Shown here: positions 12,078 to 17,116 of the stretch, one piece after another
How the letters are laid out: each line of letters begins with the position of its first letter
Position numbering within the stretch: the stretch's first letter is position 1
NCBI GenBank assembly: GCA_005881895.1
Contig: VBCG01000007.1
Location: 1 to 32,202 of the forward strand
Direction: 5' to 3'
DNA length: 32,202 nucleotides
Source: Betaproteobacteria bacterium
GTDB lineage: Bacteria > Pseudomonadota > Gammaproteobacteria > Burkholderiales > Casimicrobiaceae
Translations under genes and position numbers: made by a program
Notes under the pieces: model-generated
Seen by the model: the letters and a program-made list of their open reading frames with translations, nothing else
The model's database searches: none
Told to the model about the DNA's origin: nothing

Positions 12078-13133
12078 TTAACGCAGTGACGCGTTTAGGG
12101 CGGCGAGCGCGGCGTTGCCGGGGACGAGATCGGCGTCCGACAGCGCGTTCAGCGGCGTATCGACGGTTTCGAGCGCGTCGTGCATGTCGCCGCTGTCGGG
12201 ATGCACGTAGAGCAATCCCGTGACGACCTCGCCTTGCGCGCGGCGTGATTCAAGATACGTCATCGCGCCGACCTTGTTCGACGGATCGTAATCGTCGTCG
12301 AGCTTGTGCAGACGGATCCTGCCGCCATCGAACAACTCGACATCGCGCACGCCGCCCGGAGGATATTCTGCCGTGATTGGTTCGCGAGACGGCCAGAAAT
12401 CGAGACGATTCACCGCATCGTTGTGCTCGCGGACATAATCGTAGCTCTTCGTCGAGCCGGGATGGTTGTTGAATGCGACGCAGGGACTGATGATGTCGAT
12501 GAACGCCGCGCCGCGATGCGCAACCGCCGCCTTGATCAACGGAACCAGTTGCGTCTTGTCGCCGGAGAAGCCGCGCGCAACGAAGGTCGCGCCGAGCGCG
12601 AGGGCAAGCAGCACGAGGTCGATCGGCTCGTCGCTGTTGACTTGGCCGCGCTTCGACTTGCTGCCTTTGTCGGCCGTCGCCGAGAACTGTCCTTTGGTGA
12701 GGCCGTAGACGCCGTTGTTCTCGACGATGTAGACCATGTTCACGCCCCGCCGCAGGATATGCGCGAACTGACCGAGGCCGATCGACGCCGAATCGCCATC
12801 GCCCGACACGCCGAGATAAATCAAATCGCGATTGGCGAGTGCCGCGCCGGTGAGCACCGACGGCATCCGCCCGTGAACGCTGTTGAAGCCGTGCGAGTTG
12901 CCGAGAAAATACGTCGGGGTCTTCGACGAGCAACCGATGCCGGAGAGCTTGGCGACGCGGTGCGGCGCGATGTCGAGCTCGAAAAACGATTGAATGATCG
13001 CAGCGGAAATCGAGTCGTGGCCGCAGCCGGCGCATAGCGTCGAGATCGCGCCTTCGTAATCGCGGCGCGTGAACCCAAGCGCGTTTTTCGGCAGATCGGG
13101 ATGATGGATCTTCGGTTTGGCGAGGTAGGTCAT
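12078..13133 (-). CDS. korB: 2-oxoglutarate oxidoreductase beta subunit (KorB)
   Basis: A 351-residue thiamine-diphosphate-binding beta subunit of a 2-oxoacid:acceptor oxidoreductase. The TPP motif runs from GDGDS (residues 111-115) to ENNGVYG; cluster-ligand cysteines are Cys34 and Cys37 (CAGCGH), Cys68 (GIGCSSKTP) and a Cys in IISPCVAFNNH. Together with korA it would oxidise 2-oxoglutarate with CoA to succinyl-CoA. It begins in the korA stop (ATGA overlap). Length is at the long end for the family (about 290-350). Substrate is inferred from overall resemblance to KorB and from the GltD-like partner. Confidence 0.92.
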   Translation of the reverse strand: MTYLAKPKIHHPDLPKNALGFTRRDYEGAISTLCAGCGHDSISAAIIQSFFELDIAPHRVAKLSGIGCSSKTPTYFLGNSHGFNSVHGRMPSVLTGAALANRDLIYLGVSGDGDSASIGLGQFAHILRRGVNMVYIVENNGVYGLTKGQFSATADKGSKSKRGQVNSDEPIDLVLLALALGATFVARGFSGDKTQLVPLIKAAVAHRGAAFIDIISPCVAFNNHPGSTKSYDYVREHNDAVNRLDFWPSREPITAEYPPGGVRDVELFDGGRIRLHKLDDDYDPSNKVGAMTYLESRRAQGEVVTGLLYVHPDSGDMHDALETVDTPLNALSDADLVPGNAALAALNASLR

Positions 13134-14968
13134 CGCGCCACCTTCCGCAACGGCGTGACGTTGAACACGCGCGCCTTTTCCGCAATCTCACGCGTGATGA
13201 AGCGCTCGGTGATCGGCGTGCCGTCGTAGTGAAGCACCGAGATCAGCTTGTCCGGATCGATGCCGCACTCGTTCACGAGCAGCATCTTGAGTTGCGCATC
13301 GCGGTTCTGTTCGACGACGAATACATGATCGTGGTCCGCGATGAAGTCTGCGACGTCGTCGTGGAACGGAAATCCGCGCAACCGCATCTGATCGAGATAG
13401 ATGCCTTGCCGGTCGAGCTCGGCCAATGACTCCGCCATGGCGGCGCCCGTCGAGCCGAACCAGATCGCGCATGTACGCGTCGCCTGTGTCGCACGCTTGA
13501 TGGCAGGCGCGGGGACCAGCATCTTCGCCGTCTCAAACTTGCGCAACAAGCGCTGCATGTTGTCGACGTATGCAGGACCCTCTTCGGTATAGCGGGCGTA
13601 GCGATCTTTCGTCGTGCCGCGCGTGAAGTATCCGCCCTTGCTCGGATGCGTGCCCGGATACGTCCGGTAGGGAATGCCGTCGCCATCGACGTCGAGATAC
13701 CGGCCGAAATCCTTGCCGGCGTCGAGCGCGGCAGCCGTCATCACCTTGCCGCGATCGATCCGCCGCGCGTCGTCCCACGCAAGCGGCTCGGTCAACCAAT
13801 CCTGCATGCCGATATCGAGATCGAGCATGACGAAGATCGGCGTTTGCAGGCGATCGGCCAGGTCGAACGCGAGCGCACCGAACTCGAAGCATTCGCGCGG
13901 GTCCTCGGGCATCAACAGCACGTGCTTCGTGTCGCCGTGCGATGCATACGCGCACGAAATCAGATCGGCTTGCTGCGTGCGCGTCGGCATGCCCGTTGAC
14001 GGGCTGCCGCGCTGAACGTCGAAGATCACCGCGGGCACTTCGGCGAAATACGCGAGGCCGAGAAACTCCTGCATCAGCGAAATGCCGGGGCCCGACGTGG
14101 CCGTGAACGCGCGCGCGCCGTTCCACGCCGCACCGATGACGATGCCAATCGACGCCAGCTCGTCCTCGGCCTGAATGATCGCGTATTTGTGCTTGCGCGT
14201 CGCCTTATCAGTGCGCAACTTGCCGCAGTGCTTTGCAAACGCCTCCGCAAGCGACGATGACGGCGTGATCGGGTACCAGGCCGCAACCGTCGCACCACCG
14301 TAGACGGCGCCAAGCGCCGCAGCAGAATTGCCGTCGATGAATATACGGTTGCCTACTTTGTCGCGGCGCTCAACGCGCAACGTCAATGGGCATGCGAAGT
14401 TCGCGAGCGCGTAATCCCGTCCCATCGCCAGCGCCTTGCGGTTGGAGTCGAGCAACGCCTCCTTGCCTTTGTATTGCTCGGCGAACAGACGCTCGATCTC
14501 GGCTGGATCGATGTCGAGCAATGCGGACAGCGCGCCGAGATAGATGATGTTCTTGAACAGCTGCCGTTGCCGTGCATCGGTGTATTCCGCATTGCAGATC
14601 GCGGTGAGCGGAACGCCGATCGCGTTGACGTCGGTACGAAACTTCGACGCCGGGAACGGTTTCGTCGAGTCGTAGAACAAGTAGCCGCCCGGCTCGATCT
14701 CCGCGACGTCCTTTTCCCACGTTTGCGGATTCATCGCCACCATCAGATCGACCCCACCACGGCGCCCGCGCCAGCCAGCTTCGACAATCCGCACCTCGTA
14801 CCAGGTGGGCAGGCCCTGGATGTTCGACGGAAAGATGTTGCGGGCCGCGACGGGGACGCCCATCCGCAGGATCGCGCGCGCGAACAAACCGTTCGCCGAT
14901 GCCGAACCGGAACCGTTGACGTTGGCAAACTTGACGACAAAATCGTTGACGCGTGCAATCGGCTTCAT
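13130..14968 (-). CDS. korA: 2-oxoglutarate oxidoreductase alpha subunit with fused gamma domain (KorA)
   Basis: A 612-residue fusion of the gamma domain (about residues 1-190, beginning VVKFANVNGSGSASANGLF) and the alpha chain (from about 205, with ITPSSSLAEAF and GPGISLMQEFLGLA). The fused order is usual for KorA-type enzymes. The alpha part shows the YASHGDTKHVLLMPEDP stretch and a C-terminal domain with GSTGAAMAE and FVVEQNRDAQ. It makes the catalytic heterodimer with KorB, joined by a four-base overlap. The start lies only a few bases after a palindromic spacer, and its ribosome-binding region (AGGCCCTT) sits in the edge of that repeat. Confidence 0.92.
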   Translation of the reverse strand: MKPIARVNDFVVKFANVNGSGSASANGLFARAILRMGVPVAARNIFPSNIQGLPTWYEVRIVEAGWRGRRGGVDLMVAMNPQTWEKDVAEIEPGGYLFYDSTKPFPASKFRTDVNAIGVPLTAICNAEYTDARQRQLFKNIIYLGALSALLDIDPAEIERLFAEQYKGKEALLDSNRKALAMGRDYALANFACPLTLRVERRDKVGNRIFIDGNSAAALGAVYGGATVAAWYPITPSSSLAEAFAKHCGKLRTDKATRKHKYAIIQAEDELASIGIVIGAAWNGARAFTATSGPGISLMQEFLGLAYFAEVPAVIFDVQRGSPSTGMPTRTQQADLISCAYASHGDTKHVLLMPEDPRECFEFGALAFDLADRLQTPIFVMLDLDIGMQDWLTEPLAWDDARRIDRGKVMTAAALDAGKDFGRYLDVDGDGIPYRTYPGTHPSKGGYFTRGTTKDRYARYTEEGPAYVDNMQRLLRKFETAKMLVPAPAIKRATQATRTCAIWFGSTGAAMAESLAELDRQGIYLDQMRLRGFPFHDDVADFIADHDHVFVVEQNRDAQLKMLLVNECGIDPDKLISVLHYDGTPITERFITREIAEKARVFNVTPLRKVAR

Positions 14969-14970
14969 AA

Positions 14971-15249
14971 GGGCCTGTTAACGCTATGGGCGCGAACGCG
15001 TTGCACGGCCGAAAACGCCGAGCGCAAGGCGCGAAGGCCAAGGCAGGTCAGATACCCGGCGAGACTTGCAACGTAGCGATGGGCGTTTTCGGCAGCAACC
15101 CGAAGGGAACGGACGGCCTGGGGCGCCACTCTGCGTTGTTCTCCTCGCCCGACGCCCGTTCTTCGCTTCCGATTTTTGTCAAAATCGCCGCCTTGATTGG
15201 CGCCCCATGCCACCCGTTCGCGTTCCGCGTCCATAGCGTTAACAGCCCT
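14971..15249 (-). repeat. Palindrome-rich spacer between korC and korA
   Basis: The gap is framed by near-terminal inverted repeats: CTGTTAACGCTATGG at 14975-14989 and its exact complement at 15231-15245, extendable to about 24 bases with mismatches. Inside are three more perfect pairs: GCCGAAAACGCC (15008-15019) with 15082-15093, TGGGGCGCCA (15119-15128) with 15198-15207, and a tight hairpin CGATTTT-TGTC-AAAATCG (15170-15187). The ends nearly coincide with the korC stop and korA start. It looks like an interspersed miniature repeat or a structured mRNA segment. An 89-codon minus-strand frame (14965-15234) crosses it and overlaps korA by ATGA, but it is shaped by the repeats and I do not call it a gene. 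Confidence 0.65.
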
Positions 15250-17116
15250 ACTCCGCCGCCAGCCCGGCGAATTCTACCGGCACAGCGCTCGCGTGCTTGC
15301 CGTGGCAGCGATCGTCGGCATGTGCAGGTTCGAACAGAAATTTCTGCATGTCCCAAGCACCCGTCGGACAGCGCTCGGCACACAGGCCGCAATGGAGGCA
15401 AACGTCCTCGTCCTTCACCATCACGCGACCCGTTTTCACCGGCGCGGATACATACAGCGCCTGTTCGAGATCGGGCGCCGGCGCCATCAGTCGTGTTCGC
15501 AAATCAGGTTCGGCGCCGTTGACCGTGAACGTGATGCAATCCATCGGACAGATGTCGACACACGCGTCGCATTCGATGCAGAGCTTGTCCGAGAAAACGG
15601 TCTGCACGTCGCAGTTGAGGCATCGCTGCGCTTCTGCATAAGCGGTGCGCAGATCGAACCCCAGCTCGACTTCGGCGCGAATGTCCTTCAACGCGATGAC
15701 CTTGTCTTTGAGCGGCACACGGTAACGCTTGTCGCCATGGATCGCGTTGTCGTAGCTCCACTCGTGGATGCCCATCTTTTGCGAGAGCAGATTCACGTGC
15801 GCCGGCGGCCGCTTCGCGAGCGACTCGCCGTGGCAGTACAGATCGATCGAGATCGCCGCATCGTGCCCGTGCGCCACGGCCCAGATGATGTTCTTCGGTC
15901 CGAATGCAGCATCACCGCCGAAGAACACGTCGGGTCGCGTCGACGCCATCGTGGCCTTGTCGACGACCGGCATGTCGTGCGCGTCGAAGGCGATGCCCAG
16001 GTCGCGCTCGATCCATGGAAACGCGTTTTCCTGACCGATGGCGACGAGCACGTCGTCGCACGGGAAATGAACAACCGGCTCGCCCGTCGGCACGAGCTGC
16101 CGCCGACCATTCTTGTCCTTTTGCGGCGCGACTTTCTCGAACGTGACGCCGGTCAGCTTACCGTTGTCGTGCGTGAACGCCTTGGGAACAAGATAGTTGT
16201 GGATCGGGATGCCCTCGTGCATCGCATCCTCTTTTTCCCACGGCGATGCTTTCATCTCGTCGAAGCCCGAACGGACGATGACGTCGACTTGCTCGCCGCC
16301 CAAACGCCGCGAGCTGCGGCAGCAATCCATCGCGGTATTTCCCCCGCCCATCACGACGACGCGTTTGCCGATCGACGTGACGTGGCCGAACGACACCGAC
16401 GACAGCCAATCGATGCCGATATGAATGTTCTTGCGCGCCTCGTTGCGTCCGGGAATCGCGATATCGCGCCCGCGTGGCGCACCGCTGCCGACGAACACGG
16501 CGTCGAACTTTTGCTCGAGCAGCGCACGCATCGAGTCGACGCGGGTGCCGCCGCGAAATTCGATGCCTTGATCCAGGATGTAGCCCACTTCCTCGTCGAT
16601 CACGCTGTCCGGCAGGCGGAATTTCGGGATCTGCGTGCGCATCATGCCGCCGCCTTGACGGTCGCCGTCGAAGATCACGCACTCGTAGCCGAGCGGTACG
16701 AGATCGCGTGCAACAGTCAACGAAGCGGGCCCGGCGCCAACCAGCGCGATGCGTTTGCCATTACGCGCTGTTGGGGGCTTGGGGAGCCGTCCACGAATGT
16801 CGCCCTTGTAATCGGCGGCAACGCGTTTGAGTCGGCAGATCGCAACGGGCTCAGGCTTGGCGCTGGCTTTGCGGTGTTCGGGAGAACCTTCTTCGACGCG
16901 TCCGCGACGGCACGCCGGCTCGCAAGGACGATCGCACGTGCGGCCCAGAATCCCCGGGAAAACGTTCGATTCCCAGTTGACCATGTACGCGTCGCCGTAG
17001 CGGCCCGCCGCGATCAACCGGATATATTCAGGAACCGGAGTATGGGCCGGACAGGCCCACTGACAATCGACGACTTTATGGAAATAGTCCGGGTGCGCAA
17101 TATCCGTCGGGTTCAA
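15248..17116 (-). CDS. korC: GltD-like FAD/NAD(P) oxidoreductase with ferredoxin domains (KorC-like)
   Basis: A 622-residue flavoprotein. Domains in order: an N-terminal Fe-S domain of GltD type with CQWACP and CDRPCEPAC; an FAD-binding Rossmann motif (VGAGPASLTVARDL); an NAD(P)-binding motif (MGGGNTAMDCCRSSRR); the second flavin site (FFGGDAAFG); and a C-terminal pair of [4Fe-4S] motifs, CIECDACVDICP and CLHCGLCAERCP. Plain GltD is about 470 residues, so the ferredoxin tail is the extra part. With korAB it matches the three-subunit 2-oxoglutarate:NAD(P) oxidoreductase known from Thauera and Azoarcus, passing electrons between clusters and NAD(P). The start is a TTG with GAGGTAAAGG upstream; no in-frame ATG or GTG is available between the upstream stop and the domain. 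Confidence 0.88.
   Translation of the reverse strand: MNPTDIAHPDYFHKVVDCQWACPAHTPVPEYIRLIAAGRYGDAYMVNWESNVFPGILGRTCDRPCEPACRRGRVEEGSPEHRKASAKPEPVAICRLKRVAADYKGDIRGRLPKPPTARNGKRIALVGAGPASLTVARDLVPLGYECVIFDGDRQGGGMMRTQIPKFRLPDSVIDEEVGYILDQGIEFRGGTRVDSMRALLEQKFDAVFVGSGAPRGRDIAIPGRNEARKNIHIGIDWLSSVSFGHVTSIGKRVVVMGGGNTAMDCCRSSRRLGGEQVDVIVRSGFDEMKASPWEKEDAMHEGIPIHNYLVPKAFTHDNGKLTGVTFEKVAPQKDKNGRRQLVPTGEPVVHFPCDDVLVAIGQENAFPWIERDLGIAFDAHDMPVVDKATMASTRPDVFFGGDAAFGPKNIIWAVAHGHDAAISIDLYCHGESLAKRPPAHVNLLSQKMGIHEWSYDNAIHGDKRYRVPLKDKVIALKDIRAEVELGFDLRTAYAEAQRCLNCDVQTVFSDKLCIECDACVDICPMDCITFTVNGAEPDLRTRLMAPAPDLEQALYVSAPVKTGRVMVKDEDVCLHCGLCAERCPTGAWDMQKFLFEPAHADDRCHGKHASAVPVEFAGLAAE

Follow-up and report, generated by a model that had tools for sequence, protein, structure and literature searches.

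The analysed stretch of DNA (the window, 32,202 nucleotides) carries two adjacent genes on its minus strand, separated by a 278-bp MITE core (14971–15248) that was delimited from copies in the same genome, their alignment and the end motif. By Pfam, the upstream gene (15248–17116, minus strand) encodes a 622-aa protein with Fer4_20, Pyr_redox_2 and Fer4 domains. The downstream gene (13130–14968, minus strand) encodes a 612-aa protein with POR and POR_N domains, identified by Pfam and by homologues in the genus as a 2-oxoacid:ferredoxin oxidoreductase with fused gamma and alpha subunits; this is the gene named korA in the original prediction, and the gene for the TPP-binding beta subunit comes after it. 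The label korC, given to the 622-aa gene, was without Pfam support; the gamma (POR) and alpha (POR_N) parts both lie in the downstream gene. The stop codon TAG of the upstream gene (15250–15248) is completed by the first G of the element, which results in a one-base overlap. The element had been described as filling the gap between the two genes exactly; it does fill the spacer, but the core overlaps the stop codon by that one base, and the left flanking dinucleotide is AA.

The predicted 15-base perfect inverted repeats were confirmed at 14975–14989 and 15231–15245, and extend to 23-nt arms at 14972–14994 and 15226–15248 (91%). The left terminal inverted repeat (14971–14994, plus strand) was assigned from the inverted pair and the end motif, and supplies one side of the closing stem; this stem is helix 1 of the family structure, in which 94.1% of cells are paired. 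The right terminal inverted repeat (15226–15248, minus strand) was assigned from the same evidence and shows three mismatches to the motif because one C of GGGCC is missing. When the family end motif was sought with up to three mismatches across the 32-kb window, two matches were found against 0.19 expected, both at the ends of the element. Next to the right end, a target TA (15249–15250) and G15248 together form the TAG stop of the 622-aa gene on the minus strand, as supported by the empty site described below. The second target copy (14969–14970) reads AA where TA is expected and directly precedes the CAT (ATG) of the 612-aa gene.

The three inner perfect pairs of 12, 10 and 7 bases were also recovered: the 12-mer within an 89% pair (15008–15025/15076–15093), the 10-mer within an 84% pair (15107–15131/15195–15219), both located by eye, and the 7-mer as a perfect pair at 14994–15000/15219–15225. 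The interior comprises hairpin arm A with a CAAGGC ... GCAACG core (15000–15098, limits approximate, plus strand), a central mini-hairpin, CCC-GAA-GGG, with a GNA loop common in the family (15099–15107, plus strand), and hairpin arm B (15108–15219, limits approximate, plus strand), the inverted counterpart of arm A with its core on the opposite strand. Arm A was assigned from the 89% pair, helices 2–5 and the core positions in relatives, arm B from the 84% pair, helices 7–11 and the core symmetry in relatives, and the mini-hairpin from the sequence. By eye, the tip of arm B is approximately 12 bp longer in the window copy, a feature common to one other copy in the genome (C194). RNA folding of the minus strand (301 nt) gave −154.9 kcal/mol with a z-score of −5.3, and none of 100 shuffles was as low. 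The window copy is largely spanned by an 89-aa frame and is also crossed by longer ones; a coding function was rejected despite these frames, on the covariation of the stems.

Ten matches were found in the window's own genome, comprising four full-length copies (C88, C194, C4 and C239) and parts of two others (C248 and C124), at 74–100% identity. The three further full-length copies were 90, 81 and 74% identical to the window copy, and alignment of the copies showed unrelated flanks. A DNA search of 41 genomes returned a match in 11, all within the genus (11 of 22 including the window's own genome, and 0 of 19 outside it); this count holds at the sensitivity of a DNA search, and includes two genomes with a weak stretch of about 30 bases only. 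The exact end motif was present in 10 of the 22 genus genomes (control 0). Other inverted-repeat sequences, without the ends of the element, were noted by eye at or near the junction of the korA homologue in two relatives (L224 of G013 and L210 of G008).

Close homologues of the downstream gene (at least 74%) were present in 20 of the 22 genus genomes, including the window's own, with a 33% relative in one more. The distance from the upstream stop to the aligned downstream start was between −4 and 26 nt in 18 of 19 measurable relatives and 90 nt in one, and the ends of the element were found at this junction in none of the 19. In the closest relative (L222, 89% over 496 residues) the empty site reads GCGGCGGAG-TAG-TGCG-ATG-AAG, including GGCGGAG-TAG-TGCG-ATG, and the window junction reads GCGGCGGAG-TAG-GGC ... 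GGCCCTT-ATG-AAG. On the simplest account of these two sequences, the element would have entered the TA of the stop codon, its own first G restoring the stop; some five bases adjoining the downstream start deviate from the prediction for a simple insertion, and the second TA is changed. Relative to L222, the insertion widened the gap in front of the downstream gene from about 4 nt to about 280 nt. By sequence, the GGAG of the old junction was displaced from the downstream start codon, and an AGG in the end of the element sits five bases before the downstream ATG. One promoter-like match fell outside the element, within the downstream gene. A search of 14900–15330 detected no site resembling an intrinsic terminator, and a role as an intrinsic terminator was rejected on that basis. 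The insertion may have an incidental local effect on the downstream gene.

The wider family was assembled from an exact scan for the end motif in named bacterial and archaeal genome contigs, which returned at least 117 stretches, with two-ended elements defined as 100–350 bp with up to three mismatches at each end. Among the matches listed there were 41 two-ended elements, 32 of which were 268–272 bp in length, and the family ends read TAGGGCCTGTTNACNCTAT. Members of 268–272 bp occurred, according to record titles and among the matches listed, in Variovorax, Ramlibacter, Polaromonas, Hydrogenophaga, Thiomonas and Dyella, and also in Zooshikella, Marinicella, Woeseiaceae, Thiogranum, Competibacteraceae and an Acidobacteriaceae MAG. 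An exact two-ended copy of around 270 bp was present in 11 of 398 genomes drawn from the phylum, including the window's own (control 0). In 29 named genomes, selected for the presence of the motif, there were between 1 and 71 occurrences per genome of the 18-base end when at most one mismatch was allowed (control 0).

The insertion target was analysed in 40 two-ended copies from Variovorax sp. MHTC-1 (16), a Thiodiazotropha MAG (11) and Zooshikella ganghwensis (13). TA was present on both sides in 37 of the 40 recent copies, indicating a TA duplication, and the TA position was preceded by a pyrimidine and followed by a purine in all 40 (YTAR). In Variovorax sp. MHTC-1, whose 16 copies had a mean identity of 98.3%, the preceding base was C in 16/16 and the following base G in 15/16. 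Gene avoidance was rejected, the bias of insertion sites away from long open runs being only mild (27 sites vs. 164 random points, p = 0.004); an earlier version with unequal windows (59 sites vs. 295 points, p = 0.62) was discarded. No match to one family member (L175) was found by blastn at E 1e-5 in 72,556 plasmid records or in 50,697 phage records, and the reading of the element as plasmid or phage cargo was rejected accordingly. Two contigs of a viral collection contained an exact two-ended element (L324, 936–1203, and L325, 366–630) and are possibly rare horizontal carriers.

Several derivatives of other lengths were observed. The Thiodiazotropha MAG (G069) held two-ended size classes of about 294, 321, 228 and 178 bp besides that of about 268 bp, and these derivatives seem able to move because each class has more than one copy. 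Ends-only derivatives of approximately 50–56 bp, with the terminal repeats back to back, were identified at L105 (4078–4133), L108 (21–75), L039 (1501–1555), L040 (1464–1519) and on contig C30 of a Candidimonas genome (G048). Two elements from Desulfovibrio MAGs, L130 (1782–2011, 230 bp) and L135 (7269–7562, 294 bp), had the same ends and, by eye, an unrelated interior. Shortened copies of about 183 bp (L005 and L029), 182 bp (L103), 169 bp (L031) and 171 bp (L168) had apparently lost one whole arm, also by eye; from their sequences, this appears as would be expected from the loss of a hairpin during replication.

A consensus fold was derived from an alignment of 32 hand-picked elements of 51 oriented ones. 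Before counting, L135 with its unrelated interior was excluded, and so were several near-duplicates and longer members; shortened elements such as L130 were outside the 51. The fold comprised 90 pairs, with a closing stem formed by both ends, arm A (~100 nt), the central CCC-GNA-GGG hairpin and arm B (~100 nt). The closing stem accounted for 29 pairs and its outer part was nearly invariant. Paired cells amounted to 92.4% vs. 68.0% in shuffled and 35–41% in slid controls, double-changed cells numbered 712 vs. 224.5 shuffled, and the covariation score was 0.609 vs. 0.169 shuffled and at most 0.134 slid; these figures are to be read with the structure having been derived from the same alignment, and the slid control, fairer with respect to relatedness, leans towards structure. 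Changes on both sides (covariation) were seen in 68 of the 90 pairs. The original prediction had made its reading depend on further copies and on covariation, both of which were thus found. Three members (four strands) folded at −176 to −224 kcal/mol with z-scores of −17.2 to −19.8, compared with which the fold of the window copy was far less exceptional.

The loop of the central hairpin was GAA, GGA or GCA (GNA) in 40 of the 51 members and TTC in five. Nine unpaired columns (A62, A109, A110, G142, A144, T179, T180, G181 and C236) were 84–100% identical among fast-changing stems. Over the whole alignment, unpaired columns were no better conserved than the inner paired columns (0.67 vs. 0.65), and the conserved cores are local. 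Symmetry of the cores was counted in a set of 26 elements, drawn from 90 distinct ones, in which all pairwise identities were below 80%. CAAGGC, with up to one mismatch, was present in both halves of 21 of these, mostly 53–56 nt from each end (chance 0.22 per half), and GCAACGC, with up to two mismatches, in both halves of 24, mostly near 97–101 nt from each end. The second arm is thus the inverted counterpart of the first, and either strand shows the same order.

The best explanation, to which we assign a probability of roughly 0.8 as a whole, is that the spacer is a non-autonomous mobile element, a MITE with IS5-type ends, belonging to a widespread family of conserved shape, and that the ferredoxin-oxidoreductase operon is affected, if at all, only as a by-product. 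The MITE traits observed were terminal inverted repeats, TA duplication, dispersed copies, one empty site and no room for a transposase gene. The suggestion of a miniature mobile repeat was supported by same-ended dispersed copies, the empty site, the lack of element ends at the junction in 19/19 measurable relatives, the duplication of TA in YTAR, and the existence of IS5-type insertion sequences that end almost identically. The persistence of one length and of a three-hairpin shape despite changed sequence points to the folded shape itself as important for the element. By comparison with its closest relative, the element inserted into the TA of the upstream stop codon, which was kept as TA plus G, and pushed the downstream gene to its distance of about 280 nt. 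The family duplicates TA in YTAR and has multiplied recently in several genomes, its predicted fold persisting through strong sequence change. An IS5/IS427-like DDE transposase would move it in trans via the common ends, and folded DNA, as a hairpin or cruciform, would be what the element needs to spread; such a fold would bring both ends together and present the same core on either strand. Against this explanation, ends-only derivatives and other size classes exist, and the arms may not be strictly needed; the window copy itself lacks one TA and has a fold with a z-score of only −5.3.

The way in which recent copies change was compared between paired and unpaired columns. Among the 16 copies of Variovorax sp. 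MHTC-1, 8/222 paired and 9/44 unpaired columns were variable (p = 0.0004), compared with 52/204 and 22/61 in Thiodiazotropha (p = 0.14) and 42/218 and 8/47 in Zooshikella (p = 0.84). The lower variability of the Variovorax stems points to constraint in young copies, unlike in the other two genomes. One-sided vs. compensated cells numbered 13 vs. 0 in Variovorax, 51 vs. 42 in Thiodiazotropha and 73 vs. 1 in Zooshikella. Recent Zooshikella copies gather one-sided changes with no difference between stems and loops, and it therefore seems that copies which still move preserve the fold, and not host use at each site; our reading is that many copies decay freely after insertion, and that those still moving keep their shape.

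The upkeep of the shape could also be mechanical, with template switching or gene conversion in a long imperfect palindrome copying one arm onto the other and producing paired changes without function. Such correction between the arms is a real, if somewhat unlikely, alternative. It is favoured by three Thiodiazotropha copies that differ from the 11-copy consensus by 12 double-changed pairs, each changed in all three and together making up most of the 42 compensated, double Watson–Crick cells, and by matched changes at both ends of similar copies within one genome (C4 vs. C30 of G260). However, copying would erase the unpaired columns or let them drift, and these are 84–100% identical at fixed positions; the length and the core spacing are likewise fixed, and Zooshikella showed a single compensated cell. 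The counts of single and double changes fit selection and copying alike and do not decide between them.

Insertion sequences of the IS5 type, 824–828 bp in length and with nearly the same ends as the element, were identified in Desulfovibrio sp. ZJ369, Pelomonas sp. Root1217 and a Verrucomicrobia MAG, and encode DUF4096 and DDE_Tnp_1 proteins in overlapping frames. In the Pelomonas element (L193/L303), the 17-base end AGGGCCTGTTNACNCTA was present on either side without mismatch; in Desulfovibrio ZJ369 (L191/L311 and L192/L313), one end was exact and the other had one mismatch. In L097, one end was exact and the other had two mismatches to the 18-base form. At about 265–272 bp (278 bp in the window copy), the element is too short for the genes of these ~820-bp insertion sequences. 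IS427/IS1301-like elements, which are members of the IS5 family with DUF4096 and DDE proteins, duplicate TA. Because its ends and target are shared with IS5-type insertion sequences, we infer that the element is probably mobilised in trans by an IS5/IS427-like DDE transposase. In Pelomonas (G063), a matching insertion sequence and a shortened MITE, the 171-bp L168, were present in one genome.

Ten genomes were searched for DUF4096. No match was found in six, all of them end-rich drafts and among them Variovorax MHTC-1 with its 16 copies at 98.3% identity, which weighs against the best explanation; the other four had some match, and insertion sequences with matching ends were those of Desulfovibrio ZJ369 and Pelomonas. 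The window's own genome had two DUF4096 genes, close to contig edges, with no matching end found nearby. PF01609 gave two matches in each of three genomes, with their ends only partly checked, and no pair of ends 0.8–1.5 kb apart was present in Variovorax MHTC-1 among the ends listed. An autonomous partner in the copy-rich genomes was thus not found by the DUF4096, PF01609 or end-pair searches. These results would be expected if the mover were some other recombinase or transposase common to the copy-rich genomes, with the similar-ended insertion sequences themselves being opportunists. We consider this rather unlikely, given that IS5-type elements from three unrelated genomes have nearly identical ends and a target that contains TA; moreover, draft assemblies lose multicopy elements, and movers can vanish after a burst.

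A bolder and tentative extension of the best explanation, which we also regard as rather improbable, is that the family is a shape-selected DNA parasite of Proteobacteria and perhaps beyond. The transposition substrate would then be folded DNA with equivalent strands, whose paired ends, two hairpins with a conserved bulged core and central C(GNA)G hairpin would be read by a protein. If this were true, the element would move in some hosts without a recognisable IS5 transposase, and it would be, to our knowledge, the first transposable element bounded by terminal inverted repeats to have an extensive, covarying and largely sequence-independent DNA structure.

Functional RNA was considered as another reason for the fold. 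Among 26 members less than 85% identical to each other, G-U pairs numbered 118/2790 on one strand and 122/2768 on the other; this symmetry is compatible with a DNA structure, or with an RNA that either strand can yield, since a transcript of one strand would favour G-U pairs on that strand. The equal rarity of these pairs on both strands speaks against a functional RNA from one strand. A search of Rfam 15 (E-value mode) with the window copy found nothing near the gathering score, and only a tRNA was matched among 12 loci; a known structured RNA family was rejected. An RNA acting independently of orientation would show CAAGGC/GCAACG in the first arm of either transcript and the complement in the second, and could serve in mRNA protection, as an RNase site or as a trans-acting RNA. 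It would agree with the same architecture on both strands, and the C(GNA)G loop reads CTNCGG on the other strand, which we take to be compatible with a UNCG-type RNA loop. In the available text of two papers (PMC10969869, PMC2267715), ERIC and Correia elements act on mRNA. We nevertheless consider this reading doubtful, given the low proportion of G-U pairs (about 4%, equal on the strands, although an RNA from either strand would be symmetric too), the missing terminator-like site and the lack of an Rfam match. A cis-acting mRNA structure kept for tuning the two flanking operon genes, as originally proposed in terms of the korC:korA ratio or the protection of a processed end, is very improbable despite the filled gap, the strong fold and the exchange of GGAG for an AGG five bases upstream of the start codon, as the ends are at the junction in 0/19 measurable relatives, copies in the same genome have unrelated flanks, G-U pairs show no bias (118 vs. 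122) and no terminator-like site was found in 14900–15330.

With IS5-family MITEs, the element shares terminal inverted repeats, TA duplication in YTAR, dispersion and a length too short for a transposase. Unlike them, it has an interior with one architecture and length across many lineages, covariation and conserved cores, and six end-rich genomes are without a DUF4096 match. ERIC/IRU elements of Enterobacteriaceae are likewise large imperfect palindromes that fold on either strand, and insert at TA; they are about 127 bp and of another sequence, and by description are set apart from the element with its length of about 268 bp, three long stems and ends shared with IS5-type insertion sequences. 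At IS200/IS605 ends and integron attC sites, folded DNA hairpins are read on one strand by other enzymes. Folded DNA would be read likewise in the boldest reading of the element, which differs in its TA-duplicating inverted repeats and strand-symmetric fold. Correia elements (NEMIS), RUP and QMITEs are also small mobile repeats, with other ends and other sizes, and REP units are far shorter and are not known to carry TA-duplicating terminal inverted repeats.

REP/REPIN sequences with RAYT transposases are described in the available text of two papers as palindromic non-autonomous repeats, as is the element (PMC2817692, PMC3116915). In the available text of a MITE review (PMC10969869), Correia and ERIC elements can affect transcripts, no constant architecture across phyla is described for Correia, RUP or QMITE elements, and the main text does not mention Variovorax, cruciform or betaproteobacter. 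The beta-proteobacterial repeat BRE, found in Bordetella, Polaromonas, Acidovorax and Delftia and usually intergenic, is 75–91 bp and often tandem (VNTR), with no terminal repeats or TA duplication described in the available text (Hot et al. 2011, PMC3110155). Compared by description only, such a tandem 75–91-bp unit seems different from a dispersed element of about 268 bp. No earlier description of the element was found in the literature searched, which did not cover ISfinder and most subscription papers; among the matches listed, the literature match to the end sequence was a sequencing primer, and nothing bearing on the element was found.

The usual view of bacterial MITEs is that they are insertion sequences which have decayed and whose interiors are dispensable. 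Unlike in this view, the interior of the present family is conserved in shape, with one length, a three-hairpin architecture and a symmetric pair of cores kept through heavy sequence change, which offers a case in which selection on DNA shape in a mobile element can be tested. The family also poses the question of its mover in those genomes where copies are fresh and no matching transposase was found. It may explain unannotated spacers of ~270 bp and assembly breaks in Beta- and Gammaproteobacteria, the korC-korA spacer included, and could be included in repeat or RNA-motif libraries. As a mobile repeat, it is ordinary in why it is present, and unusual in how strictly its shape, length and symmetric cores persist across distant bacteria.
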